Assembly (NCBI GenBank): GCA_938009235.1
Contig: CALLIK010000002.1
Location: 124,001-188,000 of the forward strand
Length of the DNA: 64,000 nucleotides
Direction: 5' to 3'
Source: an uncultured Caulobacterales bacterium
GTDB taxonomy: Bacteria > Pseudomonadota > Alphaproteobacteria > Caulobacterales > Maricaulaceae
Under the pieces are notes generated by a model that was not told where the DNA came from, did not search any database, and was given only the letters and a program-made list of their open reading frames with translations. Shown here one piece after another: positions 5,103 to 38,594 of this stretch (its first letter is position 1; each line of letters begins with the position of its first letter). The translations under genes and the position numbers were made by a program.

Positions 5103-5894
5103 ATGACGCGCGACGTTAAAACAAGCGTGATAGGCCTAACATGGCTGAGGGGGGCTTTGATGGCCCTCTCCGTAGTCGGTATGTTAATTTTCTCATTCAT
5201 AATGGCGAGCACTTTTGCAGACAGAGTCGTGCTTGAGAAAGCCGCGATCTTCGCTATTCAAAGCAAGGTCCAAACCGAAGTTAAGACAAAATACCCAGGT
5301 CTAGAGGCTGAAGGGTTTCTGCAAAGTGCCGACGCTCTGCGTGATAAATTCGACAGTAAAGGAACCGCCATTCGGAAAGCTCTAGAGATGAAAATGGATG
5401 TGGCGGTCGCGACTGCAATTTCTCGCTACTGTGGATGTAAAACAGTATCGCCCAAGAGACAGAATATGATCACAGGTTTATTTAAGAGTCAGAATGCCCA
5501 AGCCGTGGCAATTTCAAAAAAACTTGAGGGTTTTATTAAGGGGAAATACGACGCCACGATTTCGGGGCTTGTGCGAGATCTTCGTATTTTTTCTGGTGTA
5601 AATATTTTCGCCTTCCTACTTATCCTTATTCTAGCATGGGTCCGTCCCAATGCGAGATTACATTTATTGTTGCCTGCAGGCTTACTTCTCATCTCAACCG
5701 TCTTAACGATATGCCTTTATGTCTTTGGGCAAAATTGGTTTTACACCTTGATGCTTGGAAGCTTTTGGGGGTTTTCATATCTGGTATATATGGGAATAGT
5801 TTTAGCCTTGACGGTAGACATTACACTCAATCACGGACGTATCACGAGAAGCATTCTCAATGCTGTCTCGAATATACCCATCGTTCCGTGCTGA
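5103..5894 (+). CDS. hypothetical membrane protein
   Basis: 263-aa ORF, several TM segments, 5 nt after the M48 gene. Confidence 0.65.
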   Translation: MTRDVKTSVIGLTWLRGALMALSVVGMLIFSFIMASTFADRVVLEKAAIFAIQSKVQTEVKTKYPGLEAEGFLQSADALRDKFDSKGTAIRKALEMKMDVAVATAISRYCGCKTVSPKRQNMITGLFKSQNAQAVAISKKLEGFIKGKYDATISGLVRDLRIFSGVNIFAFLLILILAWVRPNARLHLLLPAGLLLISTVLTICLYVFGQNWFYTLMLGSFWGFSYLVYMGIVLALTVDITLNHGRITRSILNAVSNIPIVPC

Positions 5895-5910: not shown

Positions 5911-6936
5911 ATGACCGACACAGTTCTCGTTACCGGTGTTTCCGGCTTTATCGCCAGCCATGTTGCTGCAAGGCTTTTGGGTGAAGGCTATGCTGTGCGC
6001 GGGACGGTGCGTAATAAATCCAAAGGCGAACGCGTTGTTGCAGCCCTCACTGCCAATGGCGTGGACACGTCAAACCTAGAGCTTATCGAAGCTGATCTCA
6101 GTAAAGATGTGGGGTGGAAGTCCGCGGTCAAAGATTGCCGTTATGTCCAACATATCGCGTCACCCTTTCCCTTAGACCCGCCCTCTGATCGCGAAGCCCT
6201 TGTTCCCGCCGCCCGCGCAGGCGCGATGCGCGTGATCGAGCAAGCCATTGGCGCAGGTGCCGAACGGGTTGTTATGACCTCGTCCATCGTTTCCATGATC
6301 GGTCAAGCCGGACGCGGTGATCACATGTTGATCAAAGAAGACGATTGGTCCGATCCTGATTGGCGTCCCCTGACGGCCTACCCAGTCTCTAAAACCCGCG
6401 CAGAACGCGCCGTCTGGGATTATGTAGACTCTCAAAATGTCAAAAATAAGCTGACAACTATTTGCCCAGGCCTCGTCTTTGGACCCGATACATATAATAA
6501 TTCAGGCGCGTCATTGGCGATTATAAAAGCCCTCTTCTCGGGCAGAATACCCGTGATGCCGCGTATCGCCTATCCGATTGTAGATGTTCGCGATTGCGCC
6601 TCATTGCACGTCAAAGCGATGACAAAACCCAACGCAGGTGGACGCCGCTTGATGGCGGCCTCCAACACGCTCTGGATGTCAGAGATTGCTGCGATTTTAC
6701 GGAATGAATACCCAAAGACGAAACTCCCGACACGTGAGCTCCCTGATGTGCTTGTAAAATTCGCGAGTCTTTTTGACCCCTCCGTGAATAGCATCAAACC
6801 TGATCTAGGGACATTCCACGAAGCCGATGCAGGCTATGTAACCGCGATGACAGGCGTCATCCCTCGCCCCGCGAAAGAAGCGGTGTTGAGCGCGGCGGAG
6901 AGTTTGATCAAGGCTGGACGGATTCAAATCTCTTAG
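5911..6936 (+). CDS. NAD-dependent epimerase/dihydroflavonol-reductase-like SDR
   Basis: VTGVSGFIASHVAARLL Rossmann motif; YPVSKTRAE (YxxxK); start set at MTDTVLV after GGAGATTAAG. Confidence 0.88.
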   Translation: MTDTVLVTGVSGFIASHVAARLLGEGYAVRGTVRNKSKGERVVAALTANGVDTSNLELIEADLSKDVGWKSAVKDCRYVQHIASPFPLDPPSDREALVPAARAGAMRVIEQAIGAGAERVVMTSSIVSMIGQAGRGDHMLIKEDDWSDPDWRPLTAYPVSKTRAERAVWDYVDSQNVKNKLTTICPGLVFGPDTYNNSGASLAIIKALFSGRIPVMPRIAYPIVDVRDCASLHVKAMTKPNAGGRRLMAASNTLWMSEIAAILRNEYPKTKLPTRELPDVLVKFASLFDPSVNSIKPDLGTFHEADAGYVTAMTGVIPRPAKEAVLSAAESLIKAGRIQIS

Positions 6937-32609: not shown

Positions 32610-33173
32610 ATGAAAATGAACGGCAATGAGATCAAACCCGGCAATATCATTAAGCACCAAGATACGCTCTGGGTGGCTGTGAAATGTAATGCTGTGAAAC
32701 CCGGTAAAGGCGGCGCCTTTAATCAGGTCGAACTGAAGAACCTGCTCGATGGGCGTAAGCTCAATGAGCGCTTCCGCTCCGCTGAAACGGTTGAACGCAT
32801 CCGCCTCGATCAGAAGACACACACATATCTTTACCCTGAAGGCGAAATGCTCGTCTTTATGAACGCTGAGAATTATGAGCAGATTTATCTGCAAGCCGAA
32901 TTTGTCGGCGAGCAAGCCCAATATCTCACTGACGGCATGGAAGTCGAAGTCGAATTTTACGAAGAACGCGCGATCACCGTTGCCCTTCCAGAACAAGTCA
33001 TTCTCGAAGTTGCAGAAACAGAGCCTGTTGTTAAAGGCCAAACCTCTGCGAACTCGTTTAAGCCTGCGACACTCAACAACGGCGCACGAACAAATGTGCC
33101 GCCTTTCGTCAACGTCGGCGAGCGTTTGGTCATCAATACGAATGATGGCTCTTACGTGAAACGCGCAGACTGA
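32610..33173 (+). CDS. efp: elongation factor P
   Basis: [29 protein letters not shown] modification loop. Confidence 0.97.
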
Positions 33174-33283
33174 ATCTAAGTCCACTAAGCTTTAGACGAC
33201 CGAACCAATATCTGGGTATTTTACCCACCCCCTGATTGCGTCGACCTAGTCTTCACGATCATATTTAAGACGCGAGAAACGCC

Positions 33284-34108
33284 ATGAGCGGAATGTCAGT
33301 CATCATGACCCTAATGCAAGAAGCGGCGCGTAAAACGTCCCGCAACTTGCTGCGCGATTTCAACGAAGTTGAGCATCTACAAATCGCCCGCAAAGGCCCT
33401 GTTGATTTCGTCAACCGCGCCCACCTCAAAGCGGAACGTACGCTGGTTGAAATGCTCTCCGAAAGCCGCCCTGGTTATGGCTTCCTCCTCGAAGAAGGCG
33501 GCGAGATTGAAAACTCTGACAAGACTCATCGCTTCATCATTTCGCCGCTCCAAGGCAAAGTGAACTATTCTCACGGCATTCCGCACTTCGCGATTTCTAT
33601 CGCGCTGGAACGCCAGATTGACGACACGCCGCGCGAAGTCGTTGCCGCAATGGTTTACAATCCCATCACGGACGAAATGTTCATGGCCGAAAAAGGCAAA
33701 GGCGCCTTTGTCAATGACGGCACACGCGGCGGCGCAGATCGCCGTCTTCGTCCTGCCAACCGCGACATTTTCCAAGAGAGCCTCTTTGCGACAAGTACGC
33801 CATTCATTGGGCGCACAGGTCATACGCGCTTCCTCAAAGAATTACATAAAGTCATGGGCTCCAGTTATGGCGTGCGCACAATGGGCGCAGCTAGTCTTGA
33901 TCTTTGCGCGACGGCTGCGGGCCGTTTCGACGGATATTGGGAACGCGATCTCGGCGTCTGGGACATCGCCGCAGGTCTCCTAATCGCGCAAGAAGCCGGC
34001 TGTGTTGTCGAGAGCCTCTCGGGCGCAGACGAACTTGCCTATACAGGCGATCCACTCGTGACGAACGAAGTCTTGCTTCCGATGTTGAAAGAACGCTTGG
34101 CAGTTTAG
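33284..34108 (+). CDS. suhB: inositol monophosphatase family (SuhB-like), probable pseudoenzyme
   Basis: Fold-typical KGPVDFVNRAHLKAE, GIPHFAISIALER, WDIAAGLLIAQEAG; DPxDGT replaced by SPLQGK. Confidence 0.85.
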   Translation: MSGMSVIMTLMQEAARKTSRNLLRDFNEVEHLQIARKGPVDFVNRAHLKAERTLVEMLSESRPGYGFLLEEGGEIENSDKTHRFIISPLQGKVNYSHGIPHFAISIALERQIDDTPREVVAAMVYNPITDEMFMAEKGKGAFVNDGTRGGADRRLRPANRDIFQESLFATSTPFIGRTGHTRFLKELHKVMGSSYGVRTMGAASLDLCATAAGRFDGYWERDLGVWDIAAGLLIAQEAGCVVESLSGADELAYTGDPLVTNEVLLPMLKERLAV

Positions 34109-34109
34109 G

Positions 34110-34889
34110 TTACGGCAGAGGCTTAAAGCCTTTGGCTTGTTCCCGACCTTCATTCATCTTTGTGCTTTGTAAGACACGTTCTTCACCTTCAAGTTCGCTC
34201 AGATAATCTGCATTCCATTTATCCAACCCTTGCTTGGATACGATGATGTCCTCTACGCCAAACACAACGGCCTCGCTAGATTTACAGGCGGGACAGATCG
34301 CAAGATCATCTTCCTCTTCATTCCAGTCTGTCACATTTTGGGTGGAGTACACAGTCGCACATCTAAAGCACCCTGCATTATTAGCCTCCTCAAGAAGTTC
34401 TTTGTATGCAGGCACATAAAACATCTCTGGGCTTGATGTTTTTAAATCACTTCGAAGTATTTCCAGCAACTTTTTCTTATATCCGAGCTGCTTGGGTATC
34501 CGTAAATTAACTGTCCCGTAGTCCACACCAAAGCTGTATTCACCTTCCCCATATGCCGTAATACGATTACGTTGCACCTGTACCCATTTCAATTTCATTG
34601 TCCGATATTCCAGAACAGTTTCAGTCCACCGCACCCGTGCGGTGAGACTAAGAATTAAGCAAAACAACGCAATCAGTCCCAAAATACACGAAATGACAAT
34701 TGCTGGAATGGACGTTCTGGATTGCCCACACGCGTTTAATGAAGGATTATGTGCCCATAATGCAGCACAAACAGCGACCACACCTAAGGTGAGATAAATT
34801 ACAATATATAACCACTGCGGTCCGCTTTCATAATCCCAACGGGTTGTTTGCGGTGCAGGTGTATCTGAGTCATTTTTCATTCCCCACAC
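34110..34889 (-). CDS. hypothetical membrane protein with C-terminal zinc ribbon
   Basis: Two TM segments; CFRC...CPAC; similar architecture to 35066-35836. Confidence 0.65.
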   Translation of the reverse strand: MWGMKNDSDTPAPQTTRWDYESGPQWLYIVIYLTLGVVAVCAALWAHNPSLNACGQSRTSIPAIVISCILGLIALFCLILSLTARVRWTETVLEYRTMKLKWVQVQRNRITAYGEGEYSFGVDYGTVNLRIPKQLGYKKKLLEILRSDLKTSSPEMFYVPAYKELLEEANNAGCFRCATVYSTQNVTDWNEEEDDLAICPACKSSEAVVFGVEDIIVSKQGLDKWNADYLSELEGEERVLQSTKMNEGREQAKGFKPLP

Positions 34890-34973
34890 CTAAGTAAATT
34901 ACTTTAAATTCCATTCAAAAAACTTGCTTAAGGGCAAACTAACTTAAGGGTTGTAACACCCCTAACTTACACT

Positions 34974-35033
34974 CACCCAAGCGCCTCCTTCTATCGCCCC
35001 CCGTTGAAACTTTTGTTTCAACATGGGTGACGA
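34974..35033 (-). repeat. Leader repeat copy 1 (hairpin plus SD-like segment)
   Basis: CACCCAAGCGCCTCCTTCTATCGCCCCCCGTTGAAACTTTTGTTTCAACATGGGTGACGA; contains GTTGAAAC-TTTT-GTTTCAAC. Confidence 0.85.
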
Positions 35034-35080
35034 ATGAAGTCTTGCTACCGGTGTTGAAAGAACGCTTAGCGGTGTAGGTT
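35027..35080 (+). pseudogene. Duplicated/diverged 3' end of suhB
   Basis: 48/54 nt match to 34058-34111; translates VTNEVLLPVLKERLAV* versus VTNEVLLPMLKERLAV*. Confidence 0.9.
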
Positions 35081-35836
35081 TTCCAAGCGGGTATGGCTGG
35101 CAACATAATCCTCTGAGGTGAATGTTGCCTTCATATGTTTATCGAACGCAACGAGGCCAGACTTAGTCATAGCAACCTCTGAATCAGTCGCACTCAATAC
35201 AGATGGGCTTCTACAATTAGGGCAAGTTGGGAATTTCAATACAACTTTTTTAAACAACGTTTTGCGTCTTTCTTCTTCCACCCACGACTTAATATCTAAC
35301 TTTCGGTGTATGCGGTGGCATCTAGAACACCCATAATTTTTTACGTCATTCATTTCGTCATGGTGCTCTACTTTATACCCGAAGTATGGAATACGCTGCC
35401 GAGCTTCACGTTTTAAAATCCCAATCAACGGTTTATAACGCCACGCAGCCTCAATCACATAATGATCGCTGGTAAAATTTAGTAACATCCCACCATCGTC
35501 TTCAAAATGCGCCCAGTTGAATTGCTCAAGCGTGTAGCATTTCCATTTTAAATTCCATCTTCTGATACAAATTCCGTCGTGATTAAATTTAATCTGCTCA
35601 TGCCAAATAGTCATAGTACTAGTGACTGCAAAGTAACCTATGCCGAGTAACAACCAACTCCAACCAGAATGCAGAATCAGAACGATCATCAAAACCATCC
35701 AAAACAATGCCGAAAACAAGGCATGATAATCCAACCCTGAGTTAAATGATTTATTGTTGTTTTCGCTTTTTCTCATTTCATCATACTGACGATGCGACCT
35801 TAACTTACGCCTAAAAATTTGATAGTTTACATGCAC
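35066..35836 (-). CDS. hypothetical membrane protein with C-terminal zinc ribbon (diverged paralogue)
   Basis: GTG start; two TM segments; CSRC...CPNC; stop codon lies inside the suhB-tail remnant. Confidence 0.6.
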   Translation of the reverse strand: MHVNYQIFRRKLRSHRQYDEMRKSENNNKSFNSGLDYHALFSALFWMVLMIVLILHSGWSWLLLGIGYFAVTSTMTIWHEQIKFNHDGICIRRWNLKWKCYTLEQFNWAHFEDDGGMLLNFTSDHYVIEAAWRYKPLIGILKREARQRIPYFGYKVEHHDEMNDVKNYGCSRCHRIHRKLDIKSWVEEERRKTLFKKVVLKFPTCPNCRSPSVLSATDSEVAMTKSGLVAFDKHMKATFTSEDYVASHTRLENLHR

Positions 35837-35892
35837 CCAAGCGTCTTCTCCTATCGCCCCCGTTGAAACTTTTGTTCAACATGGGTGACGAC
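35834..35892 (-). repeat. Leader repeat copy 2
   Basis: CACCCAAGCGTCTTCTCCTATCGCCCCCGTTGAAACTTTTGTTCAACATGGGTGACGA; aligns to copy 1 with few substitutions and two 1-nt gaps. Confidence 0.85.
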
Positions 35893-35903
35893 TAAATTAA
35901 GCA

Positions 35904-36037
35904 GGACAGCCCGCGTGGTTGATACTCGCGACGGAGTACCGAAAGAATAGTTTTGTTTTACGCAGGTATCATTGAACTGGCTTGTAAATCCAATTCACCA
36001 CGCGGCGACGGTTTTTGACGAAGCGGCCCATCTGTCC
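35904..36037 (-). ncRNA. Candidate structured RNA / cis-regulatory leader
   Basis: 9-bp closing stem 35911-35919/35997-36005, two 7-bp internal stems, flanking GGACAG/CTGTCC; internal stems pair fully only on - strand (G.U). Confidence 0.4.
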
Positions 36038-36330
36038 CTACAGTTTGGCCATTAGACCTAGTTCGTGCAATTTTTGGAAACAAAAAATGCACCTGTCGGC
36101 TCTCACTCCAAAAGGTCCGGTACAAACTCAGCTCTCACACCAAGTCACTCAACCCCACCGCCTCTCGAACCAGATAGAGAGCGCTACCCTGTCCCTGTCC
36201 GAAAGAACGAGATCACTATGCCACAGTTTTTGAAGGCGTGGACGCATCTCGCTTAATTTGTTGCAAGGGATTGAAAACAAAGGGGTCTGAGTTTTCTAAA
36301 ACGTGGACCATTATTCTAATTTCAAAATAA

Positions 36331-36447
36331 CATCCGTTCATCCCAGCCCTGAGCTGGGATCCAGTGAGCCTATGGACACATATTCACGAGTGCTCTGGAC
36401 CCCAGCTCAAGTCGTTTGGTAAACCAAACAACAGGCTGGGGTGAGCG
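36331..36447. repeat. Imperfect inverted-repeat element (palindromic intergenic element/MITE-like)
   Basis: CGTTCATCCCAGCCCTGAGCTGGGATCCAG versus the reverse complement of CTGGACCCCAGCTCAAG...AGGCTGGGGTGAGCG, with an inner GTTTGGT-AA-ACCAAAC hairpin. Confidence 0.75.
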
Positions 36448-36529
36448 GAAAGGCGATGTGTATTTAGAGTGAGGACTTCAGACGTGGAACATTAACCCAT
36501 GCTGTTGAAGTTACAAAACTTAAAAACTC

Positions 36530-36871
36530 TCAGAGTTGAGTGCTGTTAAGAAAGATACAAGCCTCTTCCGAAGCCAACACCTTGGAAATATCTTCTTTGT
36601 TTAAGTTAGCTTTTATACGCATCCACTCAACGAGACCGTAAAACCCTATATGTTCATCGCTAAATGACAGCACTTTGGGGCCAACGTTAAATTCAACATA
36701 ATGGCCTGATACCCCATGTTCTTTTGATGAAATCAATTTCGGGTTTTTTATATCTGGCCACGAAAAAGTAAAATGGTCGCCATAATAATCCACATCAATA
36801 ACATCTACGGACACTTTGACCGTGACAGAAAGTCGAAACAGGTTCCAAAACCATGATCGAATATTCAACAT
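36530..36871 (-). CDS. hypothetical protein
   Basis: 113-aa ORF; no recognised motif. Confidence 0.4.
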   Translation of the reverse strand: MLNIRSWFWNLFRLSVTVKVSVDVIDVDYYGDHFTFSWPDIKNPKLISSKEHGVSGHYVEFNVGPKVLSFSDEHIGFYGLVEWMRIKANLNKEDISKVLASEEACIFLNSTQL

Positions 36872-36964
36872 TTACATCCTACTTTGCCTTGCTTTCCATC
36901 ATTTAGGTAAGGAACGAAAAGCTTAAATTAGTTTATGCTCTTAACGTTACAAAACTGAACACCG

Positions 36965-37363
36965 TTAAGAAGACGGCTTCCTTTTCACGTAACACTCAGT
37001 ATGCATTGTTTCATTGTAATAGCACAAACTAAGCCTCCCCCATATTATTTCAAATAACGCAGGCCAATCACTGGAGATGGTCTCAGATGGAAATTGGAAA
37101 TTCACTAAATCATATCGAATTTCATCGTCCTCCGGAAAATAATCCACCCAGACCCGAGTGTTTATAGTAATTATTTCCCCATCTATTTTCGTCTTTTGGG
37201 TATAGGTCCCATCGCGCGAGATAATGAGGATATGATCGACACCATCGACAACAAGCGAATACTCACCATAAATCGAGTTCTTATCGATTTTAGCCATGCA
37301 TGCATTTAGCGCAAAAGCTACAAATATGGAGGCCAATATATACTTGAATATAGTGTTCATCAT
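36965..37363 (-). CDS. hypothetical lipoprotein
   Basis: Signal peptide MMNTIFKYILASIFVAFALNAC lipobox. Confidence 0.55.
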   Translation of the reverse strand: MMNTIFKYILASIFVAFALNACMAKIDKNSIYGEYSLVVDGVDHILIISRDGTYTQKTKIDGEIITINTRVWVDYFPEDDEIRYDLVNFQFPSETISSDWPALFEIIWGRLSLCYYNETMHTECYVKRKPSS

Positions 37364-37442
37364 TTCAAAGCCTTCGCCGAAACCATTACTTATCGCAAGA
37401 GTGTTTTGCTTCAGGTTTGTCCCTCCCCAAAAAACCACCCAT

Positions 37443-37471
37443 AAAAAAAGCCCCGATCCAAAGATCGAGGC
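37443..37471 (-). terminator. Rho-independent terminator after tRNA-Asp
   Basis: GCCTCGATC-TTTG-GATCGGGGC followed by T7 on - strand. Confidence 0.8.
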
Positions 37472-37506
37472 GTTTTAAATCTTAATACCATTTCCTAAAA
37501 GGAAAA

Positions 37507-37583
37507 TGGCGCGAGTGACGGGACTCGAACCCGCGGCCTCTGGCGTGACAGGCCAGCGCTCTAACCAACTGAGCTACACCCGC
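37507..37583 (-). tRNA. tRNA-Asp (GTC)
   Basis: Cloverleaf: 7-bp acceptor, GCTC/GAGC D-arm, loop CTGTCAC, TTCGAGT, encoded CCA. Confidence 0.96.
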
Positions 37584-37655
37584 TAAGATGTGAGGGGCTA
37601 TTAGCCACGGGGTTTCGTTTGGTCAACGCGGAAATGCCTGTTTTTGCAGATTTAT

Positions 37656-38009
37656 TCAGCCAGAGCTCAACTTGTCCCTCACAGACCTCGGAAGGTTCGG
37701 TAAAACCGTGTTATATGAGGCCTCTAGACGTGCCAAAACGTCATCTTCGTCCAGTTTATCTAGGAATAAGACCATCCAATCCCCGCGCGGCAGATGGGAA
37801 TGGGCCTCTGCAACGCCAACTTCGAACAACATTGCGCGAATCTCTGGGTCTGGAGCCTTCACCGTGAGTCGATTTGCGGCAGGACGAAGAATCGCAAACA
37901 TCTTAAATTGGGTCTGCGTGCCCACTTTGAACACATGCGCACCGCCCCATTGCTCTGTCATATATGTAGATGGCAGAGACAGTGCCATTTTTGTGATATT
38001 TTCATCCAT
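37656..38009 (-). CDS. MmcQ/YjbR-family DNA-binding protein
   Basis: Family pattern 'WGGAHVFKVGTQTQFKMFAIL..PEIRAMLFE'; start MDENITK. Confidence 0.8.
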   Translation of the reverse strand: MDENITKMALSLPSTYMTEQWGGAHVFKVGTQTQFKMFAILRPAANRLTVKAPDPEIRAMLFEVGVAEAHSHLPRGDWMVLFLDKLDEDDVLARLEASYNTVLPNLPRSVRDKLSSG

Positions 38010-38077
38010 GAAATCACATACAGCAATTGCATGTGTGATCAAAAGCAGTATAAGCCCCACTTCGCATGAAATGCGTG

Positions 38078-38153
38078 GGGCGGTTAGCTCAGCTGGTAGA
38101 GCATCTCGTTTACACCGAGAGGGTCAGCGGTTCGAACCCGTTACCGCCCACCA
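38078..38153 (+). tRNA. tRNA-Val (TAC)
   Basis: GGGCGGT acceptor, anticodon loop TTTACAC, TTCGAAC, encoded CCA. Confidence 0.96.
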
Positions 38154-38336
38154 TTCATTTCACTCGCGGCCTCCCCTGATCTTGAAGACAATTTCCAGAC
38201 AGGGTCGATCGCCGTTTGCGCGCCCCCCTTTATATATAGAGTCCTAGCTGCGTGAATTGTCTGAGTTGAATATATGGGCTGAAGTGTCTCCACTGCGTTT
38301 TCCAGATGTTTTTGCGAATTAGTCGCATTTAGTTCT

Positions 38337-38391
38337 TGCAACTCATTCTCAATCTCTCTAATCGAAACTCGTAATTAAGACTTATTCGCAA
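38337..38391. promoter_or_regulatory. Possible Fur/iron-responsive site(s) upstream of the receptor
   Basis: TTGCAACTCATTCTCAATC and CTCGTAATTAAGACTTATTCGCAA, Fur-box-like by eye. Confidence 0.3.
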
Positions 38392-38594
38392 GAGGGCTTC
38401 CATGATCGTTCAAACACAAGCTTCAATCCTCACGGGCCTAATGGCGGCAGATTGCCACCATAGCCAAAGTGAGTTTTTTGATGCTGTGCAAGATGCCTTG
38501 ATCATGGCCCGCGAAACCGCCGCCATCCCTACCCCACACAGTTCAGTCAGCAATGACCGCACAACACTGCCCCACCAGAATAGATAGAAGACAC

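Follow-up and report, generated by a model that had tools for sequence, protein, structure and literature searches.

A probable integrase-free cassette-exchange slot beside suhB in marine bacteria, and its core-gene relics

The stretch of DNA analyzed here (the window, 64,000 nucleotides) carries, directly downstream of suhB, what is very probably a cassette-exchange slot, a fixed site at which nearly all related marine bacteria carry a different small gene. In the genome to which the window belongs (G000) this slot holds two cargo genes in tandem, separated by a copy of the suhB 3' end, here called a relic, which is likely to have been formed by one-sided illegitimate recombination. The reading preferred here, an exchange slot without an integrase in which a one-sided event explains the tandem state of G000, is given a probability of roughly 70 %. 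The features concerned are collected in Table 1.

Table 1 Features of the suhB slot in the window and loci examined elsewhere
Feature	Position	Strand	Basis or remark
suhB, inositol monophosphatase family	33284..34108	+	PF00459, 1.5e-40; left border of slot
suhB 3' end, functional copy of repeated 54 nt	34058..34111	+	direct-repeat search
Cargo gene 1, protein with TM pair, possible PH-like domain and zinc ribbon	34110..34889	-	ORF
Leader 1, truncated 5' end of element, cut at GTGACGA	34967..35033	+	89.6 % vs 35827-35891
suhB 3'-end relic	35027..35080	+	48/54 vs 34058-34111
Junction GTGACGA, 7-nt microhomology of element and suhB	35027..35033	+	sequence reading
Cargo gene 2, distant homologue of cargo gene 1	35066..35836	-	ORF and homology; 3' end overlaps relic
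Leader 2, 5' end of intact element	35827..35891	+	GTGACGA at 35885-35891
Dispersed structured element	35840..36312	+	core 35903-36269; right border of slot in close relatives
Element copies examined as loci	L084-L123; L200-L239
pccB-pccA intervals	L211 7853-8813; L222 7459-8214; L254-L264

The suhB relic and its junction

Orthologues of suhB were found in all 40 relatives searched. A search of the whole 64 kb window for direct repeats no shorter than 30 nt and no more than 6 kb apart returned only two pairs, repeat D1, formed by the suhB 3' end and its relic (54 nt, 89 %, E 1e-12), and the leader pair (67 nt, E 6e-16). Since these are the sole repeats of this kind in the window and their E values are low, neither is due to chance, and a chance match was rejected for both. 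An earlier, sequence-only reading of this DNA had reported 48 matches in 54 nt, with five of the six differences synonymous, and these values were exactly reproduced. The relic keeps the suhB frame through to the stop codon and translates as VTNEVLLPVLKERLAV, compared to VTNEVLLPMLKERLAV for the suhB end. It was likewise seen again that the relic directly abuts the leader, its start being the exact end of leader 1, that the next gene (cargo gene 2, stop at 35066) ends within the relic, and that the motif GTGACGA is shared. This motif is present at 34058, 35027 and 35885-35891. Leader 2 reads ...CAACATGG-GTGACGA-CTAAATTAAGC and suhB reads ...CTC-GTGACGA-ACGAAG, while the G000 junction reads ...CAACATGG-GTGACGA-ATGAAG, an overlap of exactly 7 nt. 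The proposed search for the lineage whose suhB tail best matches the relic yielded no donor: the nearest sequence is the suhB of the same genome (48/54), followed by a match of 38/54. Along the gene, suhB identity to relatives shows only a mild and not unique drop in the last 75 nt, so that a replaced 3' end is neither shown nor excluded.

Cargo genes of the window

The stop codon of cargo gene 1 lies 1 nt from that of suhB, and translation may instead begin at an in-frame ATG at 34880. For cargo gene 2 an ATG near 35776 is more probable as start codon than the GTG of the ORF list, which is sited in leader 2. Both proteins have a TM pair, a possible PH-like region and a zinc ribbon. The two proteins had been described as alike in architecture only. 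They turned out to be real distant homologues sharing CxxC...CPxC, at 22-23 % identity with E about 1e-4 in both directions. The GC content of the cargo genes is 0.445 and 0.402 versus 0.549 for suhB. For the TM/zinc cargo, the cargo 1 protein included, Pfam gave nothing above cut-off and PADLOC found no match, and among 18 genus genomes the cargo 1 protein matched nothing but the product of cargo gene 2. In a single-sequence search the TM/zinc family was found within the genus in the suhB slot only. A profile search across the taxonomic family retrieved one good further homologue, in G191 of another genus (E 1.3e-19), and the ORFs lying up to 1.5 kb from this homologue do not include suhB. 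The AlphaFold model of the TM/zinc cargo is poor (pLDDT 62), and a Foldseek search with it gave PH-domain matches only, all non-significant. From the Tdi1-type content of the slot in G016 (see below), a role of the TM/zinc cargo in competition may be guessed.

The suhB slot among relatives

The slot was read in G000 and in eight close relatives with SuhB proteins 80-91 % identical, among which Litorimonas cladophorae KCTC 23968 (G013; NZ_BMYV01000002.1). In these bacteria suhB comes first, a minus-strand cargo gene may or may not come next, and a repeated element closes the series. In seven of the eight relatives this element lies 3' of suhB and has the orientation of that gene. In G012 neither an element nor a cargo gene flush with suhB was detected. 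The cargo strand is always minus in the slots read, tail-to-tail with suhB. Slot contents differ between species. The slots of G010 and G009 are empty, with the element directly after suhB. G005 and G013, the two nearest species, have one unplaced protein of ~185 aa in common, G008 holds a third TM/zinc protein and G016 a T6SS_Tdi1_C immunity domain (5e-15). The G002 slot contains a gene for a BACON lipoprotein and one for a DUF4272 protein (1e-33), unrelated to each other and separated by a diverged suhB relic of about 66 nt; that of G000 contains two TM/zinc genes and a relic. Other genes follow suhB in more distant members of the genus. In close relatives the space from suhB to the element is thus either empty or occupied by differing, mostly single genes. 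The exchange slot postulated after suhB by the sequence-only reading is supported by these differing or missing genes, and the comparison of alleles across related genomes that it called for added G002 as a second species with a relic, there between unrelated cargo.

No recombinase or transposase was found by Pfam among the cargo of the suhB and pcc slots examined. In ~244 kb of sequence (the window and 15 suhB-region loci) the close direct repeats outside the element comprise the two suhB relics and one intragenic repeat. The scan for relics covered the stretches around slots and element copies.

A second slot between pccB and pccA

A direct-repeat scan of 40 loci with element copies, taken from G000 and G013, revealed, in both genomes, a copy of the start of pccA between cargo genes. 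pccA, named from its sequence, encodes a biotin carboxylase subunit. The pccB-pccA interval was then read in ten further genus genomes. It is empty in G015 and contains a macro domain and DUF7079 in G016, an M15-like gene in G013 and G007, DUF2442 in G014, a membrane-protein family in G009, G002 and G017, and several unplaced gene families elsewhere. Relics of the pccA 5' end measure 93 nt in G013, 57 nt in G000 and 159 nt in G017.

These relics bear on the possibility that the G000 arrangement is an old in-place tandem duplication of suhB tail, TM/zinc gene and leader, followed by fast divergence of the cargo. Cargo genes 1 and 2 are indeed distant homologues, and both flanks are doubled in the same order. 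However, the flanks are 89 % alike while the cargo proteins share only about 20-23 % identity, and unrelated genes flank the relic of the suhB slot in G002 and those of the pcc slot in G013 and G000. Simple tandem duplication is excluded in these three cases, and as an explanation of the suhB slot of G000 it is quite improbable, since most relics separate unrelated cargo.

The dispersed structured element

The leader had been regarded as part of a private cassette. This view has to be abandoned: leader 2 runs into the element, and the leader hairpin GTTGAAAC-TTTT-GTTTCAAC recurs in element copies L090, L099, L104 and L116, so that leader 1 is a cut copy of a dispersed structured element, of which the leader is the 5' end and which forms the right border of the slot. 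BLAST gave 59 matches to the element in G000 and 16-57 in each of the eight close relatives. G003 gave three weak matches, and eight members of the same GTDB genus that are less closely related gave none. The copies are roughly 420-640 nt long and modular, with interchangeable 5'-end hairpins. In an alignment of 36 copies the pairing of one helix reaches 99.4 %, and four of its pairs have both partners changed; the covariation score, counted over the whole structure, was reached by none of 500 shuffles. G-U pairs are present on the suhB strand, suggesting an RNA on this strand. Of 119 family genomes, 16 had matches to covariance model R1, built on the first domain of the element; they belong to four genera. 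Rfam searches at gathering score gave no match in 10 suhB loci. A known RNA as right border of the slot was rejected, as only tRNAs reached this score in window positions 33000-38500. A literature search on the dispersed element gave nothing relevant.

It could be supposed that the element itself drives exchange, its many copies being recombination hot spots at which neighbouring genes are swapped. In most close relatives the suhB slot does have the element as a border, and in the element/REARRANGEMENT comparison of G000 with G013 the neighbour genes differ at 9 of 10 element gaps versus 17 of 38 others (p 0.013). With a stricter gene cut-off, however, the same comparison gives 7 of 10 versus 13 of 32 gaps (p 0.15), and the association is suggestive only. 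Moreover, the pcc slot works with no element in its interior, and in G017, which does have a relic, neither BLAST nor the covariance model matched the element. The element is thus not needed for relic formation, and a driving role for it is as doubtful as the tandem duplication.

Several contigs of G000 (C8, C10, C11, C12, C13, C14 and C16) end in or beside element copies, so that the element probably limits the assembly of these genomes. Just after an element copy of Litorimonas cladophorae (L233, element on +), a 41-nt repeat (90 %; 5542-5582 and 5918-5958) brackets an ORF of 90 aa. In the window, a 36-nt repeat (75 %; 36499-36534 and 36935-36970) brackets a low-GC gene of 113 aa (36530-36871), which together with a gene of 157 aa (36965-37438) may form another small slot beside tRNA-Asp.

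Origin of the relics

In the preferred reading, DNA fragments of close relatives would arrive by gene transfer agent (GTA) or natural transformation, and homologous recombination in suhB and in the element or the sequence beyond it would normally replace the slot content. The event in G000 would have been one-sided: a fragment consisting of suhB, cargo and element would have recombined by homology at one end, the other end being joined at the 7-nt GTGACGA that the 5' part of the element and the suhB tail have in common. Because one end was homologous and the other a microhomology join, the old cargo would be kept and a scar left. The expected product is suhB, cargo 1, cut element, suhB-tail relic, cargo 2 and intact element. 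The two kinds of join together would account for the anatomy of G000 base by base, making it a candidate product of homology-facilitated illegitimate recombination. They explain the tandem state better than flanking homology alone, as had been proposed earlier. The same process may have produced the relics of G002 (suhB slot) and of G000, G013 and G017 (pccB-pccA slot). At the join of the G002 suhB relic no microhomology partner was identified; only the suhB junction of G000 shows a clear one.

Two mirror versions of the event fit equally well, the relic being either donor DNA joined into a cut element or the displaced suhB end of the recipient. The suhB tail, attributed by the sequence-only reading to another lineage, may accordingly be the recipient's own. 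Over all five relics, 49 of 81 differences are in third positions. This excess shows that part of the relic divergence took place under coding constraint; it is also given by drift in a dead and a living copy together, and cannot tell foreign from old local sequence.

Site-specific integration at the suhB 3' end, in which a tyrosine or serine recombinase would use the repeat to attach and the cargo would be a tiny island, is the least probable alternative, since, although duplicated gene ends around inserted DNA are a classic mark of integrase islands and a 7-nt direct repeat borders each unit, the relics differ in length (54, about 66, 93, 57 and 159 nt) and in the gene end they represent (3' at the suhB slot, 5' at the pcc slot), a common core site was not found among them, and no integrase gene is present in any slot examined.

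A family-wide integrase-free cassette system, in which structured RNA-like elements of 450-620 nt, many to a genome, would serve as portable homology borders of single-gene cassettes and each core-gene-end relic would record a failed replacement, is speculative and on balance unlikely.

Strain variation and delivery

The suhB stop codon of G016 marks the end of one contig, whose last 141 nt reappear at the start of another (exact; ends of L006 and L033), and in G002 an exact contig overlap of 141 nt ends at codon 5 of pccA (ends of L255 and L256). These forks, in metagenome assemblies at contig level, suggest strain variation. They are expected where one core gene has two alternative neighbours in a population, or with a long identical relic in the same genome, and they speak for the slot. 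Cargo differences between species were directly observed, and variation at strain level is indicated by the two assembly forks alone. In principle there is a route by which DNA could be delivered: the GTA hallmark PF13547 is encoded in 15 of 18 genomes and ComEC in 17 of 18, in both cases including G000, although such genes are common and are no proof of transfer.

Comparison with known systems

One-sided recombination is an outcome known mainly from laboratory transformation, and core-gene-end relics can be considered its readable scars. A count of relics across genomes would make it possible to measure how often, and with what polarity, cassettes are added versus replaced in nature. Relics also point to further hidden exchange slots, as they did here for pccB-pccA. 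The structured element, found in at least four genera, is a lead of its own; the stretches searched with Rfam gave no match to it.

Minimal mobile elements (MMEs) of Neisseria reportedly go back to Saunders and Snyder in 2002. They are defined as whole-gene cassettes between conserved genes that vary by strain through homologous recombination in the flanks (PMC3082526). The slots described here resemble MMEs in having differing whole-gene cassettes between fixed conserved neighbours and, according to Pfam analysis of the cargo, no mobility genes of their own; exchange by homologous recombination in the flanks would be a further likeness. Two conserved border genes are present at pccB-pccA, whereas the suhB slot has a gene on the left only, its right border being a repeated structured element. 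Furthermore, cassettes in the suhB slot sometimes pile up in tandem with core-gene relics, and the variation shown here is between species, while in MMEs it is between strains.

For displaced immunity arrays of Vibrio, homology at one end combined with an illegitimate microhomology join has been proposed (PMC5361080). In the reading preferred here the suhB slot would share with these arrays, and with Rhs/CDI orphan modules, the homology anchor at one end and the illegitimate join at the other, the old gene pushed aside and the displaced gene end left behind. The scars differ, in that they derive here from the housekeeping genes suhB and pccA and there from the effector gene, and the cargo is here mostly not recognised as effector or immunity gene, with the exception of the Tdi1-type immunity domain of G016. 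Genomic islands at gene 3' ends also have a duplicated core-gene 3' end beside inserted DNA, but the slots lack an integrase and a constant core, carry single-gene cargo and have a 5'-end version at pccA. The closest known systems are the MMEs of Neisseria and the displaced immunity-gene arrays of Vibrio; the slots described here are a variant of the MME kind, distinguished by core-gene-end relics as an unusual and useful feature.
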